Below the pieces are notes generated by a model that did no database searches, was not told where the DNA came from, and worked only from the letters and a program-made list of their open reading frames with translations. DNA of 64,000 nucleotides from Candidatus Laterigemmans baculatus (lineage in GTDB: Bacteria; Planctomycetota; Planctomycetia; Pirellulales; Pirellulaceae), in the NCBI RefSeq assembly GCF_010367455.1, contig NZ_WRPR01000074.1:1-64000 (forward strand). The letters run 5' to 3'. The position numbers and the translations under genes are program-made. Below are positions 40,740-53,617 of this stretch, in pieces. Each line of letters starts with the position of its first letter. Positions within the stretch are counted from its first letter, which is position 1.

Positions 40740-42533
40740 ATGACGAGATTACTTGCAGCCACGACCGGCTCCACGCTGCTGGGTATGGCAGTATTCGGCT
40801 TATCGCTTTTGGTACCGGGCTCCGCGGCAGCAGCCGCAGACGGACCACCGAACATCGTCGTGATTTTGACCGACGACCAAGGGTGGGGCGACCTGAGTCT
40901 GCATGGAAACGCAAATCTCTCCACCCCCCACATCGACTCGATCGCCAAGCAAGGGGCCGAGTTCGATCGCTTTTTTGTCAGCCCCGTTTGCTCACCGACG
41001 CGAGCGGAGTTTCTAACCGGCCGCTACCATCCTCGCGGGGGTGTGTATGACACGTCGACCGGCGGCGAGCGGCTGGACCTCGACGAGCAAACAATCGCCG
41101 AGGTCTTTCGTGACGCTGGCTATGCAACCGGCGCGTTCGGCAAGTGGCACAGCGGCATGCAGTATCCATACAACCCGCGGGGCCGCGGATTCCAGGAGTA
41201 CTATGGTTTTTGCTCTGGCCACTGGGGGAATTACTTTTCGCCAGAGCTCGAACACAACGGCAAACTAGTTCGCGGCGATGGGTACATCACCGACGACTTT
41301 ACCAACCACGCCATCGAGTTCATCGAAGCGAACAAGCAACAGCCGTTCTTTTGCTATATGCCCCTTTGTACCCCGCATTCTCCGATGCAGGTGCCCGATT
41401 CGTTTTATGAGAAGTTTAAAGACGCGGACCTGGCGATGCGAAACCGGGATCCCGAGCGTGAGGACCTCCTGCACACACGGGCAGCCCTAGCGATGTGTGA
41501 GAACATCGACTGGAACGTCGGCCGAATCCTCGAGAAGCTCGACGAGCTGCAGATCGCCGACGACACGATCGTGATCTACTTCAGCGACAACGGGCCCAAC
41601 GGCTTTCGCTGGAATGGTGGCATGAAAGGCCGCAAGGGCTCGACCGACGAAGGTGGGATGCGGGTGCCCTGCCTGGTTCGTTGGCCCGGACGGATACCCG
41701 CTGGCAGCCGAATCGAATCGATCGGGGGGGCGATCGATCTCTTGCCAACGCTGGCCGACTTGGCGGGAATTGCGCTCAAGCCCAAGCATCCGCTCGATGG
41801 GGTGAGTCTCCGGCCGCTATTGGAGCAAACCGCCCAAAGCTGGCCCGATCGCATGCTCTTCTCCCACTGGAACAACCGAGTCAGCGTGCGCACCGACCGG
41901 TTCCGGCTGGACAACGCCGGCAAGCTGTTCGACATGCACAATGATCCCGAGCAGCGTCACAATGTGGCTTCGGAACATCCGGAGACGGCGGCCGAGCTCG
42001 TCGCGGCGGCCGAGCGTTGGCGAGCCGAACTACTCCCGGGACTGCGTGACGACGACCGTCCCTTCCCGGTCGGCTACCGCGAGTTTCCGATCACCCATCT
42101 CCCCGCTCGCGACGGCGTCGGACATGGCAACATCGTCCGCAGTGCCCGAGCCCCCAACTGCTCGTTCTTCACGGGCTGGACCAGTGTGGAGGACCGGATC
42201 ACCTGGGACGTCGACGTCCACACCGCCGGAACGTATACGGTCGAGGTCCACTACACCTGCGAAGCGGATGATGTTGGCGCGAAGCTTGAGCTCAGCTTTG
42301 CCGATGCCGCCCTCGAGGCCCAGGTCAAGGAACCGCACGACCCGCCACTCCGCGGTGCCGAGCACGACCGAGCCTCTCGCGGTGCCGAGTCGTTCGTGAA
42401 GGACTTTCGCCCACTGAGCCTGGGTCAGGTCGAGCTGCCGGCGGGCCGAGGAGCCCTGACGCTCCGCGCGACCGAGATCCCCGGCGACGAAGTCATCGAC
42501 GTCCGCCGGCTCGTGCTCACCCTCCAGCCATAA
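40740..42533 (+). CDS. Secreted sulfatase with C-terminal sandwich domain
   Basis: A 597-residue sulfatase: signal peptide, [25 protein letters not shown] with Cys84 as formylglycine precursor, [29 protein letters not shown] and [20 protein letters not shown]. From about residue 455 there is an extra domain of about 140 residues with strand-rich composition ([32 protein letters not shown]). It is similar in position and style to the extra domain of the sulfatase at 18681. That domain contains a small duplication ([14 protein letters not shown]). A hairpin-element pair follows the stop. Confidence 0.92.
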
Positions 42534-42548
42534 GCCCCCATCGTCCTC

Positions 42549-42624
42549 CATAGTCGCCTTTCGCTCCGCAAAAGTTCGCGTCCACAGTCCTCCATAGTCG
42601 CCTTTCGCTCCGCGAAAGTTCGCG
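42549..42624. repeat. Two direct copies of the TTTCGCTCCGC element
   Basis: Two direct copies, each containing CATAGTCGCCTTTCGCTCCG, start at 42549 and 42592. Unlike the other sites in this window, there is no inverted partner here. Again the element sits just after a stop codon (sulfatase ending at 42533), in the gap before the FemAB-like gene. Confidence 0.85.
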
Positions 42625-42730
42625 ACCCTTTACAGCACCTTCGATAATCACCGGTCCGCCGCAGTGGCCCCCGCGCTAGAGTTGAGGAGACCATTTCCGG
42701 TCCCCAACTTTCGCGCTCAGGGAATCTGTC

Positions 42731-43759
42731 GTGGATCAGCTCGAAGTTCTCGACTGGCCAGTCGAAATACCCACGGTGACGCAAGCGAGTTACCCGCGAC
42801 TCAATGGGCATCACGATGCCTGGATCGAAGCGCTCGCCAAAGGATTTGCTCATCCCACCTACCTACTGCAAACCTCGCGAGAGCGGCAGGTGACAGGGAC
42901 GCTGCCGCTGATGCTGGTCAAAAGCAGGCTCTTTGGGCGGTTTCTCGTCAGCCTCCCCTACCTCAACACCGGTGGCGTTTGGGCTGATAACGACGCCAGT
43001 GCGAAGGCCCTCGTCGACGGGGCCTGTGAACTCGCCGACCGCCTCGACGTCCGCTACCTGGAGTTGCGACATGAGAGGCCGGTCGAGCACCCCCGATTGA
43101 ACTTCCGACGAAATGACAAACTTCACATGCGGTTGCCCCTTCCGGCGACCGCAGACGAGCTCCACCAATCGCTGAAATCGAAGCTGCGGAGCCAAGTCAA
43201 GAAAGCGGGAGAGTACGGTTCGACCGTCCACTGGGGTGGCAAAGAGCTGCTGGCTCCGTTCTACAGCGTGTTCGCCCGCAACATGCGGGATCTAGGTACC
43301 CCTGTATTTTCGCAGCGTCTGTTCGCCTCCATTCTCGACGCGTTTGCCGGAGAGGCGGAGCTGTGCGTTGTGCGGCAGGGCTCCACGCCCATCGCGGCGG
43401 CGCTGCTGGTTCACCTGGAGGAAGTGAGCGAAGTGCCAAGCGCCAGCAGCCTTCGCGAATACAACCGCACAAACGCCAACATGCTGATGTATTGGCATCT
43501 CCTCCAACGATCCATTGAACGCGGGAGCGCGACATTCGACTTCGGCCGCAGCAGCCTCGGAAGCGGGACTTTCAAGTTCAAGGCGCAGTGGGGAGCCGAG
43601 CCCCACCCTGCGGAATGGCAGTACTACGTGCGGAGCGGCTCGGTCGAGGCGATGCGTCCCGACTCGGCCGCAAATCAGCGTCTCATCCGGATTTGGCAGC
43701 GGCTTCCGGTTTGGTTGACCCGTCTTGCCGGTCCTCCAATCGTCCGCGGTATCCCTTAA
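42731..43759 (+). CDS. FemAB-like GNAT protein, exosortase-associated type
   Basis: A 342-residue double-GNAT protein of the FemAB/FemX type that accompanies XrtA/PEP-CTERM loci. Typical stretches are LPLMLVKSRLFGRFLVSLPY, LNTGGVWADNDASAKALVDG, ELRHERPVEHPRL, SKLRSQVKKAGEYG and DFGRSSLGSGTFKFKAQWGA, the last being the conserved end of the family. Known FemAB proteins add amino acids from aminoacyl-tRNA to peptidoglycan; the exosortase-linked group has no known substrate. The GTG start follows CAGGGAA. It opens the plus-strand run of exporter and acyltransferase genes, 172 nt before the permease. Confidence 0.85.
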   Translation: MDQLEVLDWPVEIPTVTQASYPRLNGHHDAWIEALAKGFAHPTYLLQTSRERQVTGTLPLMLVKSRLFGRFLVSLPYLNTGGVWADNDASAKALVDGACELADRLDVRYLELRHERPVEHPRLNFRRNDKLHMRLPLPATADELHQSLKSKLRSQVKKAGEYGSTVHWGGKELLAPFYSVFARNMRDLGTPVFSQRLFASILDAFAGEAELCVVRQGSTPIAAALLVHLEEVSEVPSASSLREYNRTNANMLMYWHLLQRSIERGSATFDFGRSSLGSGTFKFKAQWGAEPHPAEWQYYVRSGSVEAMRPDSAANQRLIRIWQRLPVWLTRLAGPPIVRGIP

Positions 43760-43931
43760 GCCGCGCCCCACGACCTGCCGATACTCCCTGTGCCGTTACC
43801 TTCCTGATAATCGACATCCCTGACTTAACCGGCAACATCCGCCTTGTCCTTTCCCCGTGGTGGGGAAGGAAAGGCCTCCGGTATCCGGCCCCATGCCGCG
43901 ATACCGACGCAGCGCCGTTCGGGGAGTCGAA

Positions 43932-45059
43932 ATGCTGTGGCAGGTAGCCATCCGTACCCTCTTAGCCGACCGCGGGAAACTGCTGGCCGGTCTGCTCGGC
44001 GTAGCCTTCTCGGTGCTCCTGGTGAACCTCCAGGGTGGCCTGTTTCTAGGGCTGATTGGCAAAGCCAGCCTGCTGGTCCACCAAGGAAACGCAGACATCT
44101 GGGTCGGCCATCGCGAGATGCACAACGTGGACTTTCCCCACGACATCCCGCGGCGGTGGCTGCCGCGAATTCGAGCCGCCCAGGGAGTTCTCGCCGCCGA
44201 ACCGATCACGATCGGCTTCTCCGAAATCGCGCTGCCCACCGGGGGCTTTGAAGGGGTGACGGTCTTTGGGGTCGAGCCGCACAGCGAGATCGCTCCTCCC
44301 TGGGAAATCATCGAAGGGCACGCCGATGCTCTCGATCACCCGCACGCGGTCGTGGTGGATCAGTACGACCAAGAAAAACTAATCCACCCGGCGATCGGCG
44401 AACTGCGAGAAATCGGGGGAGTCCGCGCGAGGATTATGGGTAAGACGCGAGGCATGCATGGCTTCCTGGTCACCCCGTACGTCTTTACCACCACCGACCG
44501 CGCGGCGCAGTACACGGGCAAGCCTTCGGCCCATTGCTCCTACTTTCTCGTCCGTGTCGCTCCCGGCGCCGACGTCGAGGAGACTTGCGCTGCGATTCGG
44601 CAGCGGCTGCCCGAAGCGGAGGTGATGCCATCGGAGGAATACGCCTCCGTCTCGATCAACTACTGGATGACGCGGACCGGGCTCGGCATCAGCTTCGGAG
44701 CCGCGGCACTACTCGGCCTGCTCGTCGGTCTCGTCATGGTGGGACAGACACTCTATGCGATGGTGTTAGATCGCCTCACCGAGTTTGCAACGCTCAAAGC
44801 CATCGGTGCAACGGAACGTGAAATCTTGATCGTGCTCCTCGGTCAAGCAGCCGGCATCGCCTCAATAGGAATTGCCGTCGGACTGACGGCCGTGATGCTC
44901 CTCATCGCGTTTTACGATTCGCCCCAAGCGCCACTGGAAATTCCACTCTCCATGATGGTGGTCAGCTCGAGTGGCATTTTTCTGATGTGCACATTCGCTT
45001 CGATGCTGCCCTACATGCGGGTTCGAAGAGTCGACGCGCATTCGGTCCTCCAGAGCTAA
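43932..45059 (+). CDS. ABC transporter permease, FtsX/DevC-like
   Basis: A 375-residue permease with the MacB/FtsX layout: one N-terminal transmembrane helix (GKLLAGLLGVAFSVLLVNLQ), a large extracytoplasmic domain of about 220 residues, and three C-terminal helices (ISFGAAALLGLLVGLVMVGQ; IASIGIAVGLTAVMLLIAF; SSGIFLMCTFASMLPYM). The C-terminal RVDAHSVLQS is typical of DevC-like permeases. With the next two genes it forms a DevC-DevA-DevB-like tripartite exporter; DevBCA exports glycolipids in heterocystous cyanobacteria. GGGAG upstream supports this ATG; the frame is open 25 codons more. The ATPase gene begins 5 nt after the stop. Confidence 0.85.
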   Translation: MLWQVAIRTLLADRGKLLAGLLGVAFSVLLVNLQGGLFLGLIGKASLLVHQGNADIWVGHREMHNVDFPHDIPRRWLPRIRAAQGVLAAEPITIGFSEIALPTGGFEGVTVFGVEPHSEIAPPWEIIEGHADALDHPHAVVVDQYDQEKLIHPAIGELREIGGVRARIMGKTRGMHGFLVTPYVFTTTDRAAQYTGKPSAHCSYFLVRVAPGADVEETCAAIRQRLPEAEVMPSEEYASVSINYWMTRTGLGISFGAAALLGLLVGLVMVGQTLYAMVLDRLTEFATLKAIGATEREILIVLLGQAAGIASIGIAVGLTAVMLLIAFYDSPQAPLEIPLSMMVVSSSGIFLMCTFASMLPYMRVRRVDAHSVLQS

Positions 45060-45064
45060 CGCCG

Positions 45065-45844
45065 ATGCTTTCCTCAACCAACACGTCAGCCCGTCTCCCT
45101 CCTTCCTTGGGCGACTTCACTCTCAATGCCAGCTTCAATGCCAGCCTCAGCGCTGGTCACGATGCGGCCGCGCACCGGCCGGTCGCCGCGGTGAAGGGCA
45201 TTCGAAAATATTATGAGCTGGGAGGCGAAAAACGCTGGATCCTGCGGGGCGTCGACTTTCATGTTCAACCGGGAGAATGCGTCATCCTTTCGGGGCCCTC
45301 GGGGAGCGGGAAAAGCACGCTTCTGTCCATCCTTGGCTGTCTGCTCACGCCCGACGGTGGTGAGCTCATAATCGATGGCCGCGCGGTGGAAAAGCTACCG
45401 CCGGCCCAGCAGGCACTGATCCGCCGCGACCTCATCGGATTTATCTTTCAGCGCTTTCAATTGATCCGAGGACTGTCGGCCGAGGAGAACGTGGCACTCC
45501 CGCTAGCGCTGCAAGGGCTGCCAGCGGCTGAGGCCAAGCGGCGTGCCGGTGAGTTGCTCGCCCGCGTGGGGCTGGGCGATCATCGCCGAGCGATTCCGAC
45601 TCGCATGAGCCCAGGCCAATGCCAGCGCGTCGCTCTGGCTAGGGCCGTCATCACCAATCCCAAATTGATTCTCGCCGACGAGCCGACCGCCGCGCTCGAT
45701 AGCCACGCCGGAGCCGAAGCGATGAATCTCCTGCGGGCCCTGGTGAAAGATTCCGGCGCTGCAGCCGTGGTCGTGACGCATGACCCGCGGATCCTGGAGT
45801 ATGCCGACCGCCAATGCCACATCGAGAACGGATTGCTCCAATGA
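45065..45844 (+). CDS. ABC transporter ATP-binding protein, DevA/MacB/LolD-like
   Basis: A 259-residue ATPase with Walker A GPSGSGKST (residues 77-85), Q-loop FIFQRFQLI, Walker B LILADEPTAALD and H-loop VVVTHDP. The signature motif is MSPGQCQRVALARA instead of LSGGQ, a tolerated variant in DevA-like proteins. The first 40 residues are a low-complexity extension containing a small duplication (NASFNASLSAG). It energises the permease encoded just upstream. Its stop overlaps the start of the membrane-fusion gene by the ATGA arrangement, so the three are coupled. Confidence 0.92.
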   Translation: MLSSTNTSARLPPSLGDFTLNASFNASLSAGHDAAAHRPVAAVKGIRKYYELGGEKRWILRGVDFHVQPGECVILSGPSGSGKSTLLSILGCLLTPDGGELIIDGRAVEKLPPAQQALIRRDLIGFIFQRFQLIRGLSAEENVALPLALQGLPAAEAKRRAGELLARVGLGDHRRAIPTRMSPGQCQRVALARAVITNPKLILADEPTAALDSHAGAEAMNLLRALVKDSGAAAVVVTHDPRILEYADRQCHIENGLLQ

Positions 45845-47022
45845 GGCTTGCTGCGTGGTTATTCGCCTCGGACGGGATTCGACGCAAGCCGGTCGCCGCA
45901 TTCACGCTGGCCGCCGCTGCGGTTGCCCTCGGGCTCACCGCCTTTGGAGTCAGCAAATATTCTCGGCTCGGCCCCAGCCGTGCGAACCGCTCCGGAGCCG
46001 CGCCGCACCGCGTCGCCCTTTCTCCAGGTTCAGCGACATCCACGACGAGCCTCGGTTCCGCTGAACGGATCTACGCTCCCGGTCGCGTCGAGGGACAGAC
46101 GCCGGAGGTGGAACTGCATGCCACCGTCACTGAACGCGTTCTGCGAATCGAGATCGAGGAAGGGGACTTCGTTCAGCCCGGACAGATCCTGATCCGGCTC
46201 GACGACGAACGTTACCGGGCCGAAGAGCAGCTCGCCGAAGCTGGCTTGCGGCTCGCCGAGGCGCGATTGGAACGGCTGCTCAATGGTGCTCGGGCGAGCG
46301 AGATCGAAGCCGCGCGGTCGGTTCATCAAGCCCGCGCGGCCGAGCACGATGGTGCGAGCCGCACGATGGCCCGCATGAACCAACTGCGGTTAGCCGGAGC
46401 GGCGAGCGGACAATCGATCGAGGATGCGGAGGTTCAAGCCCGCACGGCTCGCGCCCTGATGCTCGCTGCGGAAGCCCAGCTCGAGACCCTTGCCGCGCCT
46501 CCCCGAGCCGACGAAGTCGCCTCGCTGCGAGCCGAAGTCGCTGCGGCCGAAGCGCGGCTGCAACTTGCTCAAACGATGCGTTCTAAAACCACCCTCGTCG
46601 CCACCACCGCCGGTGAGATCCTGGAGATCCGAGTGGAGCCAGGCGAATTAGCCGCCCCAGGCATGCCGCTGGTTGTGATGTGCGACACGCGGCGACTCAA
46701 AGTCCGAGCGGATGTGGAGGAATGGGATGCCCTGCGAGTGGCTGTAGGACAAGCAGCCACGATCACCGCCGACGGCCTCCCTCATGCGGAGCTCGAGGGG
46801 CGAGTTTCCCACGTCCGGCCGCGACTGAATCAAAAGCGGCTGACCAGCGATCGTCCCGGCGAAAAGCTCGACTCGCGGACCCGAGAAATCTGGATCGAGC
46901 TAATCAGCCCGCCACCGCTGGTGGTCGGCCTTCCGGTGGATGTCTGGATTCACCCTGCACCAACTTCCCCTCCCACTCCCACTCCGCATCATGCCGCGTT
47001 CACCGTGCCGCGGCACCGGTAA
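45841..47022 (+). CDS. HlyD/DevB-like membrane fusion protein
   Basis: A 393-residue periplasmic adaptor: an N-terminal anchor (PVAAFTLAAAAVALGLTAFG), the lipoyl half-motif YAPGRVEGQTPEVELHATVT-like start, and a long coiled-coil hairpin (about residues 125-265, alanine/glutamate/arginine-rich). The second lipoyl half (TTAGEILEIRVEPGELAAPG) and a beta-barrel (VEEWDALRVAVGQAATITAD) follow. It should link the ABC permease to an outer-membrane channel. It completes the exporter operon. No TolC-like gene is in the window. The C-terminus is proline/threonine-rich (APTSPPTPTPHHA). Confidence 0.88.
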   Translation: MRLAAWLFASDGIRRKPVAAFTLAAAAVALGLTAFGVSKYSRLGPSRANRSGAAPHRVALSPGSATSTTSLGSAERIYAPGRVEGQTPEVELHATVTERVLRIEIEEGDFVQPGQILIRLDDERYRAEEQLAEAGLRLAEARLERLLNGARASEIEAARSVHQARAAEHDGASRTMARMNQLRLAGAASGQSIEDAEVQARTARALMLAAEAQLETLAAPPRADEVASLRAEVAAAEARLQLAQTMRSKTTLVATTAGEILEIRVEPGELAAPGMPLVVMCDTRRLKVRADVEEWDALRVAVGQAATITADGLPHAELEGRVSHVRPRLNQKRLTSDRPGEKLDSRTREIWIELISPPPLVVGLPVDVWIHPAPTSPPTPTPHHAAFTVPRHR

Positions 47023-47160
47023 CCAAAGATCTCAACACTCCAATCGCAAGCGTTACGAGCCTTGCAATCCTCAATCTCGAACGCTGCCCCTTGGCACCGC
47101 TCGCAAAATCTGAGTGCCCCGTGCCAGCCGGATCGCTAGACCGACCTAGGCTTCTTTCGA

Positions 47161-47187
47161 TAAGGAAGTCCTGAGCAGGATTCCTTA
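47161..47187. other. Imperfect hairpin upstream of the first FeeM-like gene
   Basis: TAAGGAAGTCCT (47161-47172) and AGGATTCCTTA (47177-47187) pair with one bulged G around a GAGC loop. It stands 139 nt after the exporter operon and 69 nt before the acyltransferase start. No U-tract follows, so it is a poor intrinsic terminator. It could be a leader structure or a partial attenuation site. This is weak evidence. Confidence 0.35.
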
Positions 47188-47256
47188 GCTGTCGGTAGAT
47201 GTCGCAATTGGTCTCAAAGGTTAGAAGCGAACGGCCCTTTACCAGGTGTGAATCCG

Positions 47257-48054
47257 ATGTCCCTAGCGCTCGTTTCGGAAAAGCTGCAGTCGACACCCCC
47301 CGGACAAATCGAACTTCGCATCGCTCGCTCCCAGGAAGAGCTTGAGCATGCATTTCGTCTCGTCCACCACTCGTACGTACGCGCTGGGCTCGCTAGCCCC
47401 AACGCGCATGGCATGCGGCTCACCAAGTTCCATCTTCTGCCAACCACGCAGGTGATGCTGGCGAAGAAAGCAGGATCGCCCATTGCCACCGCTTCGCTCG
47501 TCCTCGACCGAGAGGGCGGTTTGCCCGCCGACGAAATCTATCGCCAGGAAATTGATCAGCTGCGCTGCCGTGGCTTGCGACTCGGTGAAGTGGGGTCGCT
47601 AGCCGATTGCCGCGAATCGGTCACACGGTTCATCCACATGTTTCGCCGGCTTACGACATTGATTGCTCAAGTAGGCGAAGCTCAAGGCTGCAATGCGCTG
47701 ATCGCCACGACCCACCCGAAACATGCCCGCTTCTACATTCGCCAACTCGGGTTCGAGCAATTCGGTGATCCCCGCGAATGCCCGCACGTCCAAGGAAAAC
47801 CGGCTGTCGCCCTGTTGCTCGATTTCGAGAAACAACAGGGCACCCCGGTGCACGAACATTTATTTGGACAGAAGTACGCCGCTGCGGATTTGGCTCCCTA
47901 TCACTGGGAAGCCGAGACGCGAAAGTACTTCAGCGCGGTACTGGAGCAAATCCAGCAACCCGCGGAGCCGCTGCGGACGCTCCCCAGTGTGAACGCTCTG
48001 CCGACCGCCACCTCCTGGGCCGCCACTCTCACCAGCACTCCGGTGAGGGGTTGA
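47257..48054 (+). CDS. FeeM-like N-acyl amino acid synthase / exosortase acyltransferase
   Basis: A 265-residue GNAT-fold protein of the FeeM / LuxI-like group. Typical marks are EELEHAFRLVHHSYVRAGLA, LLPTTQVMLAKKAGSPIATA, LVLDREGGLPADEIYRQEID, LRLGEVGSLADCRE and NALIATTHPKHARFYIRQLG. FeeM makes N-acyl tyrosine using acyl-ACP; related proteins are listed as PEP-CTERM/exosortase-associated acyltransferases. The predicted reaction is transfer of a long acyl chain to an amino acid. It follows the ABC exporter (234 nt), and a paralogue lies 1.5 kb downstream. The GTG nine bases upstream is an alternative start. Confidence 0.8.
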   Translation: MSLALVSEKLQSTPPGQIELRIARSQEELEHAFRLVHHSYVRAGLASPNAHGMRLTKFHLLPTTQVMLAKKAGSPIATASLVLDREGGLPADEIYRQEIDQLRCRGLRLGEVGSLADCRESVTRFIHMFRRLTTLIAQVGEAQGCNALIATTHPKHARFYIRQLGFEQFGDPRECPHVQGKPAVALLLDFEKQQGTPVHEHLFGQKYAAADLAPYHWEAETRKYFSAVLEQIQQPAEPLRTLPSVNALPTATSWAATLTSTPVRG

Positions 48055-48294
48055 AGCTCGACTTCACCCAACCCGCTCGACCCAGCCGAATCGCCCCACC
48101 CCAACCTTCGCGGCCTGCTACCCCCCTCGTCGGCTCGCGAGCCGCATTGTCGGGGTCGCTTCTCAGCCTTCTACAATCCGTGCGAACCGTCCATGCGTCG
48201 GAAATGCGCTCAGGCGATCAGTGCGGCGAGCTGTTAGCGCATCACGACTGCATTCTCCGCTCGGCACCTGAAAATCTCTTCAATAGGTTCCGCC

Positions 48295-48954
48295 ATGAGC
48301 GACAAGAAGCGTCTGCTGGTCTTTCACCAGAACTGCCTCTTTCGCGACTGCTTAGCAACCTATCTGAAAACCAGTGGTGGATATGACGCGGAGTCCGCCG
48401 AACACTTGCAGTCTTCTCCACTGATCGAGCTGATCCGAGATCCGATCGACGTCCTCCTGCTCGATTTGAATCTACCGGACAATCTGACCCTCAAAATCGC
48501 GAGGGCGATTCAGCAAGCGGAACTGCCGACGAAGATCATCGTATTGGCTTCCGAGGATCATGAAAAAATCATCGATTGCATCGCCGCGGGCGTTCAAGGT
48601 TGTGTGCTCGAACGCTCGCCGCTCGCTGAACTCGACATGGCCATCGCCCGCGTCCGGGAGGGAGAAACCTTCTGCTCTCCGGACATCGTCTCCAAGATGT
48701 TCACTGAACTCGCCCGGTTCGCCCACCGTCCGCACCGCGAGCCTCCCAAGCCGAAGGGGCGGTTGACCGGGCGGGAGCGGGAGGTGCTTGAGCTGCTTGG
48801 CAAGCGAAAAAGCAACAAGCAGATTGCTGCGGAGCTGAACGTATCGCTCTACACGGTCAAGAACCACGTCCACAACATCCTCGAGAAACTCAAGGTCGAC
48901 AGCCGCGTCGAGGCGGTCAAGCGGGCCCGCCAGCAGGATGAGCCAGGCGTCTAG
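48295..48954 (+). CDS. NarL/LuxR-family regulator with degenerate receiver
   Basis: A 219-residue two-domain regulator. The receiver keeps the phospho-acceptor candidate Asp57 (VLLLDLNLPDN) but lacks the acidic pair after strand 1 (LLVFHQNCLF where VDDH is usual). It also lacks the conserved lysine after strand 5 (CVLERSPLAEL where a K is usual). Phosphorylation in the normal way is therefore doubtful. The C-terminal LuxR HTH is intact (LTGREREVLELLGKRKSNKQ, IAAELNVSLYTVKNHVHNIL). It lies between the two FeeM-like genes and is the obvious local regulator; it may respond to a ligand rather than to a kinase. Confidence 0.88.
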   Translation: MSDKKRLLVFHQNCLFRDCLATYLKTSGGYDAESAEHLQSSPLIELIRDPIDVLLLDLNLPDNLTLKIARAIQQAELPTKIIVLASEDHEKIIDCIAAGVQGCVLERSPLAELDMAIARVREGETFCSPDIVSKMFTELARFAHRPHREPPKPKGRLTGREREVLELLGKRKSNKQIAAELNVSLYTVKNHVHNILEKLKVDSRVEAVKRARQQDEPGV

Positions 48955-49507
48955 CAACGCCGGGCGGGTGCGCGAACGAAAGAATCGCGTTCACGCAGTT
49001 TCGCGGAACAGTTTCTTTCCTTCAGGGAACCCTGCCGCGGCCCGCCGCATCCAAACCAAGACGGCTGCGCCTTATCACTTCGCTGCCAATGAGCGAAAGC
49101 ATCCGGGGGGGTAGCCAATCGTGCTTGTGATCACGCAGTTAACCAAGAGCGACTAGCGAATTTGGGACAGGCACTGTGGAGAGGATTGATCAAAAAGGAT
49201 CTAGTTCCCCTCCAATCTAGCGGGATCTCTTCTAGTTCTAAAACAGTCTCAAAGATGCATAGAATCGCTTCCCCACTCGCCGCACAATTGGCTCGGCCAT
49301 ATCTTCTCTTTGCCTCCGCGATTTATCCCGCACGAGCCCACGCCGCTGCGAGCCGACCCCGTGGTTTGGCCACGTCCGCCTAAGCTGCGATTCGGCCATC
49401 TTGATCGTCAGCCGCGGAGCGGACCTCTTCTCCCCGAGCCTCGCAAAACCTCGCCTCCACCGTTTGCCCTTTCTCGTCCATCGCTCAAGCCCCAGGAGCC
49501 CCTCGTA
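48955..49507. other. Intergenic region, no supported gene
   Basis: About 550 bp between the LuxR gene and the second acyltransferase. The coding frame of the latter stays open upstream from 49310, but the translated stretch is proline/arginine-rich and unlike the paralogue's N-terminus. I see no hairpin repeat, tRNA or small gene. A shared regulatory region is likely, but no site can be named. Confidence 0.4.
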
Positions 49508-50239
49508 ATGCAAGCCGGAATCCCATCGACTTCCGCTTCCTTGGCCACGCCGCTGCGGATGAAAGTTTCCGAGACGAGGGAGGAGCGATCGGCAGCGTTC
49601 CAGCTGGTCCACCGGGTCTACCGGCGGGCCGGCCTGACCGCCGACAACCAGATGCAGATGCGGGTGATCCCCCACCACCTGCTCGATACGACCGAGGTGT
49701 TGATCGCTCAGCAAGCCGAGCAAGTCACCTTCACGATCACCCTGGTTCGGGACGGACTCGAGGGGCTCCCGTCCGAATCGCTGTTTGCCGAGCAGGTCGC
49801 TGCGATGCGAAGCGACGGCCTGTCTCTGGCCGAGGTATCGTGCGTGGCGAGCAACTGCGGTGACGAGAACAAGAAGGAGCGTTTCGAGACGCTGGTGCGG
49901 ATGATCAGCTTGACGATCCATACGGCTCGTCAGCGGGGTGTGGATCGCTTGCTGCTAGCCGTGCATCCGCGTCATGCAAAGGTCTACCAACGCCTGTTTG
50001 GCTGCGTTCCCTGCTCCGGCGTTGAACAGTACGAAGCTGTTCAGGGAAAACCCGCCGTCCTGTGCATGCATGACTTCGACGAACTCGATCGCCGGCGCTA
50101 TCCACTCTATGACCATGTCTACGGTCATCAGTATGCCCCCTGGCAGCTCGCCGGCGCTCCGATGTCGCTGGACGAGAAGGAATTCTTTCATCAAGCCATT
50201 AGCGTCCACAGCGACCAACTGGTCCCCATGGCCGCATAG
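49508..50239 (+). CDS. Second FeeM-like N-acyl amino acid synthase
   Basis: A 243-residue paralogue of the protein at 47257: RSAAFQLVHRVYRRAGLTAD, IPHHLLDTTEVLIAQQAEQV, DGLEGLPSESLFAEQVAAMR, LSLAEVSCVASNCGDENKKE and LLLAVHPRHAKVYQRLFGCV follow the same order. Divergence between the two is high, so they probably differ in acyl donor or acceptor rather than being recent duplicates. AGGAG about 9 nt upstream supports this ATG. It precedes the ThiF/nitroreductase pair by about 150 nt on the same strand. Confidence 0.8.
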   Translation: MQAGIPSTSASLATPLRMKVSETREERSAAFQLVHRVYRRAGLTADNQMQMRVIPHHLLDTTEVLIAQQAEQVTFTITLVRDGLEGLPSESLFAEQVAAMRSDGLSLAEVSCVASNCGDENKKERFETLVRMISLTIHTARQRGVDRLLLAVHPRHAKVYQRLFGCVPCSGVEQYEAVQGKPAVLCMHDFDELDRRRYPLYDHVYGHQYAPWQLAGAPMSLDEKEFFHQAISVHSDQLVPMAA

Positions 50240-50391
50240 CAGGCGGGCAGCGGCTCACGCGGGATCGTGAGGCGGATGCCTGTACGCCCAACGACTCCCC
50301 ATTGGCGATGGCCATCCATAGAGTGGGGGGTAATCCGGAGGGGGCTTTGAAAGCCTCGATTTGAGCGCCGAGCATTTGGGAGCTTAAGATT

Positions 50392-51306
50392 GTGTCGCAT
50401 AGCCCATCGCCACCAAGCTCGCAGGAGACCCGTGCTGGTCTCTGGAACTATGAAGAAGCTTTCTCAAGAAACCTTGGCCTGATTTCACCCTCCGAGCAAG
50501 CGAGACTCCGCAACTGCCGCGTCGCGATCCCGGGTATGGGAGGCGTCGGGGGCCTCCATTTGATGACGCTCGTCAGGATGGGAATCGGAAAATTTCGCAT
50601 CGCCGACGCCGACCAATTCAGTCTCGGCAACTTCAATCGGCAGTTCGGCTCGTCCGTCGAAACAATCGACGAATTTAAGGCCGAAGTCTTGGCTGCCGCC
50701 GCTCGTGGGGTGAACCCCCAATTGGAGCTCGACGTTCGCACCTCCTTTGTCGATGTCTCCAATGTAGACGCATTTCTCGAGGGAGTGGACCTGTTGGTGG
50801 ATGCGGTTGATTTCTTCGCCTTTGACGCACGGCGGATGCTTTTTCGCGAAGCCCGCAAGCGTGGTATCTGGGCAGTGACTGCCGGGCCGATCGGTTTCAG
50901 CACCGCCTGGATGACCTTCAGCCCCCAAGGCATGTCTTTCGACGACTACTTTGACCTGCATGATGAAATGGATTCTCTGGAACGATTCATCGCGTTTGCT
51001 TTGGGGCTCGCCCCTCTGGCCACCCATATCCCTTACTTTGATTTCTCTTATGTGGACCGAGCCAGCGGCCGGGGACCTTCCGTCGCCGCTGCATGCTGCC
51101 TGGCGGCCGGCGTCGTAGGTGCCGAAGCCGTCAAAATCCTTCTCGGCCGGGGCACGGTCCGCTCGGCTCCACACTTTCACCAGTTCGACGCGTACCGCTA
51201 TCTGCTGAAACACGGTCGTCTGCGGTGGGGCAACCGAGGCCCCATTCAGAAACTTAAGCGACGAATCATGCGCCGCCGCCTCATTCAGCTCGGCTTCAGC
51301 GTCTAG
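50392..51306 (+). CDS. ThiF/MoeB/E1-like adenylyltransferase
   Basis: A 304-residue E1-like protein. NYEEAFSRNLGLISPSEQAR holds the arginine finger (Arg26), IPGMGGVGGLHLMTLVRMGI the nucleotide-binding loop (residues 48-54), and IADADQFSLGNFNRQFG the D-x-D...N-x-x-R-Q motif; Lys and Asp follow in EFKAEVLA and LLVDAVDFF. There are no C-x-x-C zinc pairs and no cysteine in the usual crossover-loop position, so it likely activates a carboxylate as an acyl-adenylate without a thioester step. E1-like domains of this type are joined to a nitroreductase domain in mycobacterial MoeY (Rv1355c); here the nitroreductase is the next gene, 32 nt on. The start is GTG. Confidence 0.85.
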   Translation: MSHSPSPPSSQETRAGLWNYEEAFSRNLGLISPSEQARLRNCRVAIPGMGGVGGLHLMTLVRMGIGKFRIADADQFSLGNFNRQFGSSVETIDEFKAEVLAAAARGVNPQLELDVRTSFVDVSNVDAFLEGVDLLVDAVDFFAFDARRMLFREARKRGIWAVTAGPIGFSTAWMTFSPQGMSFDDYFDLHDEMDSLERFIAFALGLAPLATHIPYFDFSYVDRASGRGPSVAAACCLAAGVVGAEAVKILLGRGTVRSAPHFHQFDAYRYLLKHGRLRWGNRGPIQKLKRRIMRRRLIQLGFSV

Positions 51307-51338
51307 AACGGATCGCCCCATTGCCAACCCTTCCGACG

Positions 51339-52403
51339 ATGCCTCCACCCGCTTCGGCCCTCAATACCCTTCTCCAAGCCGCCGTCCTGGCCCCTTCGGG
51401 CGACAATACTCAGCCTTGGCGATTTGTCGTCGACCACGCCCAGCGATCGATTCTGCTTGAGGTGGACCCCACGCGGGATCCCTCGCCCATGAATGCAGGG
51501 CAACGGATGGCGAGAATCTCACTCGGAGCGGCCCTCGAGAACATGGCTCGTACGGCCAACCACAACGCGTGGCGTTATGAGATTCGCGACGATAGCTCCA
51601 GCGGGATGGTTCGGTTTCAGCTGAATACCGATGCTGGTCCAGGTACGATCGATCCGCTGCTCGCCCTGCGGGTCACCAATCGACGCGTTTACGTCCGCAA
51701 CGAGTTGACCGCGGAAGCTCTCGAACGTATACGTCCCACCGTCTCGGACGCCGACACGACACGGACCACTTTCCTCACCGATCCTGAAGTACTTAAGGCC
51801 CTGGTTCCCCTGATTGGTCGCGCGGACGCTCTAATTCTCGGAACCAAGCCGATCCGCAATGCATTCTTATCGAAGGTGCGATTCGACGTCGCCCCCAACG
51901 ACGCCGTTGACGAGGGCTTATCGCTGGGGTCGCTCGAAGTTTCCAGAATGGACCGCATCTCTCTGCGTTTGATGCGTTTCCTGCAGCCATCGGACAAGCT
52001 GATGCAGGTGCTGGGGGCTCGGCGCATCTTTGCCCAAGTCGCAACGCGGCTCGCTGCCAGCGCCTCCGGATTTTGCGTCATCACTTCGACCGGAGACGAC
52101 GAACGGGCCGATATTCAGGTCGGTCGGGCCTGGCAAAGAGGCTGGCTGCGGCTGACAGAGGAAGGGTTTGCTACCCAACCGATGATGTCACTCCTCGTGC
52201 TGCAAAACCTTCTGGACCACCACTTGGCTGAGATTCTCAGAAAACCCGACCGCGCCGCAGCCCGACGACTGCTCGAAGAATTTTGCACGTTCATCAGCAC
52301 TCTCGCCGACGGACGCCCTGCCGCGCTATTGCGGTTTGGCCAAGCAGAAGCCCCCACCGCTAAGGTCCGTCGTCTGGCTCCCGAGCGATTCATGCGCGCT
52401 TAG
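51339..52403 (+). CDS. Nitroreductase-like flavoprotein, Acg/MoeY-C type
   Basis: A 354-residue protein with the N-terminal FMN-site motif LAPSGDNTQPWRF (residues 18-30), then MNAGQRMARISLGAALENM, LLALRVTNRRVYVRNEL, and ITSTGDDERADIQVGRAWQR. This is the two-half nitroreductase layout of Acg (Rv2032) and of the C-terminal half of MoeY. Acg-like proteins lack normal nitroreductase activity and may store flavin; in other clusters such domains oxidise thiazolines or amides. It ends the plus-strand cluster and converges with the PEP-CTERM gene. Chemistry on the product of the ThiF-like enzyme is inference from pairing. Confidence 0.82.
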   Translation: MPPPASALNTLLQAAVLAPSGDNTQPWRFVVDHAQRSILLEVDPTRDPSPMNAGQRMARISLGAALENMARTANHNAWRYEIRDDSSSGMVRFQLNTDAGPGTIDPLLALRVTNRRVYVRNELTAEALERIRPTVSDADTTRTTFLTDPEVLKALVPLIGRADALILGTKPIRNAFLSKVRFDVAPNDAVDEGLSLGSLEVSRMDRISLRLMRFLQPSDKLMQVLGARRIFAQVATRLAASASGFCVITSTGDDERADIQVGRAWQRGWLRLTEEGFATQPMMSLLVLQNLLDHHLAEILRKPDRAAARRLLEEFCTFISTLADGRPAALLRFGQAEAPTAKVRRLAPERFMRA

Positions 52404-52573: not shown

Positions 52574-53617
52574 TTAGGCCTTGCGGTTGCGTTTCGACAG
52601 CCGGCGTCCCGCGGCAGCGCCGCAGACACCGAGGGCGAAGATCGTCATCGACCCTGGCTCCGGAACGATGGCCAAAATTCCCGCATCGGCGCTCAGGCCG
52701 GCGCTAAAGTCTCCCGTCCCTGCTCCCAGGCCGGTCGGCGTAAATCCCCCCTCGGAGAAGAGGCCCATGTTGTACGCGGCCAGCGAAATTGCATCCAGGA
52801 TCGCGATCTGAGCTGCAGTGAGAGTCACCGGAGTGGGGTTGGCGGTTTGATCCGTGACCGTGGCCAAACCATTGAAATTTGTCGTTCCCCCACCCGGGAG
52901 TTCCACGTCCCGCAGCCAATCATCGCCCACGAACGCCCCAAGGCCGGGGTTGTCGAACAGCGCGCCAGGCGCGAAGAGGGTGTCTTCGAAGAAGGCAAAA
53001 AGCCCAGCTCCGCTCGCGGCGATACGCCCTACCGCACTCGCATTGACTGCTTCCGCTTCTGCTTCCAGAGACATCGCGGGAGTGATCCCAACGGAGTTCC
53101 CGTCGATAATGTCCCCGGGCGGAGCCAAGTCGAACTTCGTGAATACGTCGTCGAAGTTCCAGGTGGAGGGATCCGATGCTAGGAACGTCGACGGGTTATC
53201 GGTTTGCGAGGAGGCAAACCACAAAGAGCCGCCGTCGAACTTCGCGGTACCGAGTCCGGTGATCGTTCCCTCGACCGCGAAGATCGCGTGGAAAGTGCTA
53301 CCGTCCGGCAACACGGTGGGCAACGTGGAACCATTGGTGGTATCCGCGAGACGAATCGCCCCCACGGTTCGCACTGTACTTCCGACTTCGAACGCACCTC
53401 CGTTGACCTGATTCGTCCAGAGCTGTCCGTTGCTAAAGCCCATCTGCTGAATGTGGATCAGCGGAGGTCCTGGAGCGCCGGGATTACCGCCGGGAAAACC
53501 AGCGGACTCCCGAACTTGCAACGTGCCATTGCTAGTGACATACGGGGCCGCCGAGGCCGAGGTTGCCGGCAGTAGACTGCCGCAGAGGAGCAAAGCTCCC
53601 AAAATGCGCATCTTCAT
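52574..53617 (-). CDS. PEP-CTERM sorting-domain protein
   Basis: A 347-residue exported protein. The N-terminus is a signal peptide (ILGALLLCGSLLPATSASAA). The last 30 residues are a classical PEP-CTERM signal: VPEPGS, a hydrophobic helix (MTIFALGVCGAAAG) and a basic tail (RRLSKRNRKA). Exosortases recognise such tails and move the protein to the envelope or extracellular matrix. The middle is Gly/Thr/Asn/Ala-rich with strands and few charges, like many matrix proteins; no enzyme domain is visible. It has its own intrinsic terminator. It is the only PEP-CTERM protein I found in the window. Confidence 0.92.
   Translation of the reverse strand: MKMRILGALLLCGSLLPATSASAAPYVTSNGTLQVRESAGFPGGNPGAPGPPLIHIQQMGFSNGQLWTNQVNGGAFEVGSTVRTVGAIRLADTTNGSTLPTVLPDGSTFHAIFAVEGTITGLGTAKFDGGSLWFASSQTDNPSTFLASDPSTWNFDDVFTKFDLAPPGDIIDGNSVGITPAMSLEAEAEAVNASAVGRIAASGAGLFAFFEDTLFAPGALFDNPGLGAFVGDDWLRDVELPGGGTTNFNGLATVTDQTANPTPVTLTAAQIAILDAISLAAYNMGLFSEGGFTPTGLGAGTGDFSAGLSADAGILAIVPEPGSMTIFALGVCGAAAGRRLSKRNRKA

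Follow-up and report, generated by a model that had tools for sequence, protein, structure and literature searches.

A planctomycete gene cluster that probably makes and exports stieleriacine- or acyl-oxazolone-type N-acyl (dehydro-)amino acids

What would a planctomycete make with two synthases of N-acyl amino acids, a ThiF/E1-like enzyme, an Acg-like oxidase and a Dev-like ATP-binding cassette (ABC) exporter, all encoded on one strand? The window, by which we mean the whole 64,000-nucleotide stretch of Candidatus Laterigemmans baculatus DNA that was analysed, lies on one contig (C136) of a 5.76 Mb genome in 153 contigs. Its planctomycete-type PSCyt1 and PSD1 domains, and a ThiF/E1-like enzyme (hereafter E1) closest to that of Roseiconus nitratireducens, place it by sequence with the Planctomycetota. 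The nine genes of the cluster (42731 to 52403), called in a preliminary description of this DNA, are indeed all open at their coordinates on the + strand, with strong and significant family matches. With a probability of roughly three in four, we read the cluster as one that makes and exports stieleriacine- or acyl-oxazolone-like N-acyl (dehydro-)amino acids. What the sequence shows is the gene content, the conserved residues for adenylation, the folds and the conservation of the clustering. The reactions, the substrate and the exported cargo we infer by analogy with characterised relatives.

FeeM-type synthase 2, E1 and the oxidase are encoded by consecutive genes (49310-52403), an adjacency shared with oxazolone clusters. 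Both N-acyl amino acid synthases, synthase 1 (47248..48054, +) and synthase 2 (49310..50239, +; likelier start at the in-frame ATG 49508), match PF21926 (3.5e-44 and 2.1e-39, respectively); an N-acyl amino acid synthase is a feature of oxazolone clusters. Synthase 1 also matches the FeeM structure 2g0b (E 0.0018), and the two synthases are 32% identical to each other. On the FeeM tree, synthase 1 pairs with one gene of the R. nitratireducens locus (L003:5199-6011; 57% identity, support 100/99) and synthase 2 with a different one (L003:6556-7434; 64% identity, support 100/100), so the window's two synthases are old, distinct paralogues carried side by side.

The E1 (50392..51306, +; PRK08223 family), a putative adenylating cyclase, scores 405.9 bits against the ThiF-like model NF006077 (cut-off 266) and misses the curated cut-offs for ThiF and MoeB (TIGR02356, 79 of 275 bits; PRK08644, 78 of 159; PRK05690, 63 of 266). 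Among the 12 loci compared, the R. nitratireducens enzyme is its closest relative, at 77% identity. Residues R26, G48, G50, G53, D74, N80, Q84, K96, D133 and D137 are invariant in 21 aligned E1 sequences, R83 is nearly so, and no cysteine is invariant in the alignment; inspection of the window E1 sequence found no CxxC. We take the adenylation roles of these residues to be those of their MoeB and ThiF counterparts. A ThiF-like protein with conserved adenylation residues, as found in oxazolone clusters, is therefore encoded in the window. The predicted model (predicted local distance difference test score, pLDDT, 92.8) has AclA with bound substrate as its top fold match (Z 28.4), followed by ThiF-ThiS (27.3), MoeB (1jw9, 27.1) and ThiF (1zfn, 27.0). 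By sequence, the best solved relatives are ubiquitin-like-modifier E1 enzymes (5.8e-15) and tRNA threonylcarbamoyladenosine dehydratase (4.6e-12). The Stieleria authors had proposed ring closure from the dehydratase likeness of their ThiF-like protein, as their reports describe it (PMC7293339, PMC7378531).

The third gene of the trio (51321..52403, +) encodes a putative desaturase of the nitroreductase superfamily, assigned by family matches and by its model. The best profile match is PRK07877 (136.5 bits, below the cut-off of 476), and against the Acg subfamily the protein scores 128.5 bits (below the cut-off of 199). A motif that we take to have a flavin-related role, APS..N.QPW, is invariant in 13 aligned oxidase sequences. 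The predicted model (pLDDT 89.8) matches the Acg homologue 2ymv with Z 29.1 over 290 residues, and the next match is far lower at 16.3. In having an Acg-like flavin-dependent oxidase, too, the window agrees with oxazolone clusters. Parts of the NCBIfam model NF011425 ('hypothetical protein', 989 positions) align successively to FeeM (30-201), E1 (312-588) and nitroreductase (614-796), so natural fusions of the three functions exist.

Support for an N-acyl (dehydro-)amino acid product comes from the occurrence of the same trio, biochemically tested, in the Tyz and Trz systems (PMC10404671, PMC12856293), and its presence in Stieleria clusters. As published, TyzA N-acylates L-Tyr and L-Phe, the ThiF homologue TyzB uses ATP for the cyclisation, and desaturation with O2 by the flavin-dependent oxidase TyzC gives C12:0-tyrazolone (PMC10404671). 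TrzA and TrzS constitute an equivalent pathway on tryptophan, in which the order of cyclisation and desaturation is described as fixed, whereas in Tyz it is free (PMC12856293). Together with OxzAB from Pseudoalteromonas rubra, as reported in the same two papers, these systems share with the window an acyltransferase, a ThiF-like cyclase and a nitroreductase-superfamily flavin oxidase; unlike the window, they come from other phyla, and the cyclase and oxidase are fused in TrzS and OxzB (PMC10404671, PMC12856293).

Stieleriacine clusters, consisting of synthase, ThiF and nitroreductase, are described in Stieleria maiorica and S. neptunia (PMC12479983, PMC7293339, PMC7378531). In S. neptunia Enr13, putative permease and exporter genes sit between the oxidoreductase and synthase genes (PMC7378531), so that synthase, ThiF-family protein, nitroreductase-family oxidoreductase and putative permease/exporter occur together as in the window (PMC7378531, PMC12479983). 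Enr13x_31240-70 are described there as permease/exporter genes, their exporter class not being stated (PMC7378531). The S. neptunia cluster has one synthase and a methyltransferase (PMC7378531), whereas the window has two synthases, a NarL-type regulator and FemAB, with no methyltransferase among the scanned genes; the likelier tyrosine methyltransferase of S. neptunia is reported to be encoded outside its cluster (PMC12479983). The S. maiorica Mal15 cluster (BGC0002080) resembles the window in its several synthases, ThiF/TcdA-like protein, oxidoreductase and PEP-CTERM gene, and in nearby exopolysaccharide genes; a regulator and transporters are mentioned, the latter without classification, and it differs in having four synthases, a methyltransferase and a fatty acid desaturase (PMC7293339). 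A move of R. nitratireducens to Stieleria, as S. nitratireducens, has been proposed, and the authors relate the nasY cluster of this bacterium to that of S. maiorica (PMC12254169). The R. nitratireducens locus compared here (L003) encodes three FeeM proteins, a ketoacyl synthase, E1, oxidase and a methyltransferase. The preliminary description knew of no described pathway with the full set, a statement contradicted by the Stieleria clusters, which as published hold nearly all of it and in S. neptunia include exporter genes (PMC7293339, PMC7378531). The pathway type is already in print, and the window is a further, rearranged member. What we add is an arrangement with two synthases, an oxidase that makes the cluster a mosaic, and statistics on the exporter. 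The stieleriacine/oxazolone pathway type is thereby extended to another planctomycete, and the secretion of such biofilm-active lipids becomes open to genetic testing, S. neptunia being a species in which genes can be manipulated (PMC12479983).

By analogy with these systems, one or both FeeM-type synthases would N-acylate an amino acid, probably an aromatic one, with a fatty acyl group. The ThiF-like enzyme would then adenylate the free carboxylate with ATP, and attack by the amide oxygen would close a five-membered oxazolone, into which the Acg-like flavin enzyme would introduce a 2,3 double bond using O2. The oxazolone might persist, or be hydrolysed to an N-acyl dehydro-amino acid, and the Dev-like ABC exporter would carry the product to the envelope or medium. 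Oxazolones are sensitive to acid (PMC12856293). The FeeM-made N-acyl amino acid, ThiF-like carboxylate activation, nitroreductase-like redox step and Dev-like export proposed in the preliminary description thus agree with tested relatives, as far as these are described, and with conserved neighbourhoods.

How widely is this gene set conserved? Among 392 planctomycete genomes, at least 12 have an E1 above the family cut-off and FeeM is matched (E up to 0.001) in at least 55, these lists being lower bounds with up to five E1 and nine FeeM candidates scored per genome. Among the matches listed, FeeM occurs in 11 of the 12 E1 genomes and, outside these, in 44 of 380 (Fisher p = 1.8e-9), so the co-occurrence on which the preliminary description had staked its proposal withstood the search. 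The lone E1 genome lacking FeeM among the matches listed is G279, and a divergent PF13444 GNAT acyltransferase adjoins E1 at L046 and L056. Local scans found further FeeM genes beside E1 than the genome search had. Within 8 kb of 30 planctomycete E1 loci (the window, L003 and L004 included), they found FeeM-like genes at 24, oxidase genes at 10 and DevC genes at 14, at thresholds of 20, 100 and 150 bits, respectively, with profiles built from the very loci scanned and several loci ending at contig ends. If the window is left out together with L077, L081 and L083, three loci that had been included as FeeM loci, the counts are 20, 9 and 12 of 26. Weak scores make four of the 24 FeeM-like genes at best acyltransferase-like (L046, 50 bits; L051, 32; L056, 54; L126, 29). 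The conserved neighbourhood expected by the preliminary description therefore stands for FeeM, the nitroreductase being a looser partner. An oxidase search of 17 genomes gave 11 matches, the window's included, and none in 7 of the genomes; eight matches adjoin an E1 gene, one lies 3 kb from FeeM (G169) and two are elsewhere (G279, and G374, the latter 30 residues long).

Other genes were observed around E1. The PF13444 GNAT genes stand in place of FeeM at L046:7407-8405 and L056:577-1386(-), where the FeeM model is below cut-off. An AMP-binding ligase (L046:4419-6122, the scanned copy, with relatives in L051 and L052) adjoins E1 and a Dev-like exporter in one planctomycete family, and L064:9722-11933 holds a tandem E1 pair beside FeeM and an exporter, one internal stop being reported in the first E1. 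Large extracytoplasmic function (ECF)-type sigma factors of about 500-770 amino acids, with a long C-terminal part that Pfam does not match, are found repeatedly in the 8 kb around E1 (L053:2988-4577, L053:5933-8242, L054:15612-17132, L055:10941-12596(-)). Their similarity cluster has 13 members at 10 loci, these four genes being the ones scanned, and the recurrence near E1 may be chance. Such sigma factors are common in planctomycetes.

The exporter is encoded by overlapping genes for a DevC-like permease (43857..45059, +; FtsX and MacB_PCD domains), a DevA-like ATPase (44987..45844, +; assigned by family match, likely start ATG 45065) and a DevB-like (HlyD) membrane-fusion protein (45814..47022, +; with ATG 45841, which overlaps the stop of DevA, as its likely start). 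DevBCA is the glycolipid exporter of heterocyst-forming cyanobacteria. The window proteins are a permease, an ATPase and a membrane-fusion protein from the same general families; unlike DevBCA, however, all three score below the curated Dev cut-offs (TIGR01185, 102 of 290 bits; TIGR02982, 218 of 296; TIGR02971, 104 of 129), so that the Dev-type exporter of the preliminary description is Dev-like and falls short of Dev proper. The window DevC was used as a query (E <= 1e-10) against 28 genomes chosen for FeeM or E1 and gave 32 matches. With the window's genome excluded, 13 of 29 DevC-like permeases, from 8 genomes, have FeeM or E1 within 10 kb, whereas 0.41 would be expected by position alone, a count for which genome sizes were rounded and FeeM rows below about 57 bits and E1 rows below about 250 bits were dropped. 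The corresponding P of about 1e-17 is inflated, inherited clusters having been treated as independent. On the DevC tree (34 rows; the placements of L012, whose branch is very long, and of the two L121 rows are not to be relied on), the window groups with L047 and L004 (support 100/98), other linked DevC fall in separate groups, and FeeM/E1-linked DevC occur in at least four separate lineages. We read this scatter as repeated recruitment or loss, a pattern that favours a functional tie more strongly than a single inherited block would. In the main texts of the literature, we found no published role for an exporter in such a pathway: there are bare mentions in PMC7293339 and PMC7378531, and tyz, unlike the window with its Dev-like exporter, has mmpL9 near by (PMC10404671).

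Several observations weigh against a pathway of the stieleriacine/acyl-oxazolone kind in the window. According to the account of the stieleriacine producers in PMC12479983, an acyl-oxazolone has never been observed from them. No methyltransferase is present among the ten genes scanned (40740-52403). E1 is often found with no oxidase near by, the latter being within 8 kb of only 10 of the 30 loci, and several E1 relatives (e.g. L004, L047 and L053) have a single CxxC in a helix, close to the position of window residue 234. With the R. nitratireducens oxidase, that of the window shares only 20% identity, against 35-36% with those of L053 and L054, which makes the window cluster a mosaic. The R. 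nitratireducens locus has no DevC in the 8 kb to either side of E1. A search at E 1e-10 left 15 of the 28 FeeM/E1 genomes without a DevC match; the exporter is thus a common feature and not a necessary one. The tree also mixes linked with unlinked DevC (8 label changes, at least 5 of them forced by starred branches), and no single dedicated exporter clade was found on it.

Could the locus instead be two separate units, the exporter and synthase 1 (perhaps with FemAB) serving an envelope lipid, and synthase 2, E1 and the oxidase forming a stand-alone oxazolone unit? E1 and the oxidase gene are 14 bases apart; gaps of 97-355 bases separate the genes other than these two and the overlapping exporter genes, so there are probably several transcription units. 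The two proposed parts are separated by gaps of 225-355 bases and by the regulator, their synthases are only 32% identical, and genome G353, with no above-cut-off E1 among the matches listed, has FeeM adjoining DevA and DevB (L065). However, the tree partners of both window synthases sit upstream of E1 and the oxidase in R. nitratireducens, and the exporter lies between FeeM and E1 in L004 (FeeM-DevC-DevA-DevB-E1-oxidase) and L047. We therefore consider the division unlikely. A still less likely alternative is that activation by the E1-like enzyme leads, not to ring closure, but to transfer of the acyl amino acid to another acceptor such as a protein, sugar or amine. E1-like folds support several chemistries, and the top solved fold, AclA with bound substrate, for which no paper was found, scores 1.1 above ThiF-ThiS; but TyzB and TrzS cyclise in the same gene setting, as reported (PMC10404671, PMC12856293), and the 21 E1 relatives have no invariant cysteine. 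A chance neighbourhood of unrelated envelope genes, with FemAB and the regulator as its non-conserved members, can practically be dismissed in view of the co-occurrence and clustering seen across planctomycete families.

The regulator and the FemAB gene appear peripheral to the cluster. As core parts, both were rejected, their window-copy profiles having matched no other locus among those compared; the regulator profile matched only L001 and L002, both taken from the window's own sequence, and profiles made from single sequences can miss distant relatives. The regulator (48295..48954, +), described preliminarily as LuxR, is instead a NarL-type response regulator with REC and GerE domains (REC 33.1, Pfam cut-off 30.2), and no autoinducer-binding domain is listed for it at E up to 1. 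By eye, its REC lacks the acidic pair and the conserved lysine that we take to be usual in this domain, and so it may escape the usual phosphorylation. The FemAB-like aminoacyltransferase (42731..43759, +), of the XrtA/PEP-CTERM type, scores 343.8 bits against TIGR03019 (cut-off 260.35) and has a PEP-CTERM protein gene near by, as in XrtA/PEP-CTERM regions. From its sequence and context it probably belongs to the adjoining envelope and exopolysaccharide genes and not to the core of the cluster.

Those neighbours, on the other strand, encode the PEP-CTERM protein (52574..53617, -; PF07589, 6.2e-05, 23.4 bits), exopolysaccharide-type proteins and glycosyltransferases, with a TIGR03108-like amidotransferase just under its cut-off (733.9 of 816.9). 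An exopolysaccharide region likewise adjoins the S. maiorica cluster (PMC7293339). It is conceivable, and very improbable, that an exported acyl-oxazolone, an electrophile, would serve as an activated acyl donor that acylates amino groups of exopolysaccharide or PEP-CTERM protein, perhaps with the FemAB-like transferase, to give a lipid-anchored biofilm matrix. The preliminary description had placed an exosortase region after the cluster. These other-strand genes are what lies there, no exosortase was found on contig C136, and the three matches of the genome are on C73, C38 and C113 of the 153-contig assembly, in which a link might still run beyond the contig ends. A general link had to be given up as well: exosortase is present in 158 of the 392 planctomycete genomes, and its share is much the same with E1 (5 of 12) as among the others (153 of 380; p = 1.0); of the 27 FeeM genomes, 14 have it (p = 0.23). 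A weaker, local exosortase/PEP-CTERM link may exist, given the PEP-CTERM neighbours in the window and at L006 and the synthase-exosortase link of Craig 2011, as reported by PMC7293339. At L006, from a gammaproteobacterium, the PEP-CTERM protein gene (L006:11374-12270) adjoins E1 and FeeM, and similar open reading frames occur in L011 and L013.

Searches for shared control elements gave no candidate. Rfam at gathering thresholds and a tRNA search had no match in the window, and no 11-base word is common to the nine stretches between or beside the genes. A common sigma-54-like promoter was rejected, with 24 matches to what we take to be the sigma-54 consensus and 26.3 expected by chance. Upstream of the cluster (window 18675-42530), five sulfatase-like genes are distributed over both strands.

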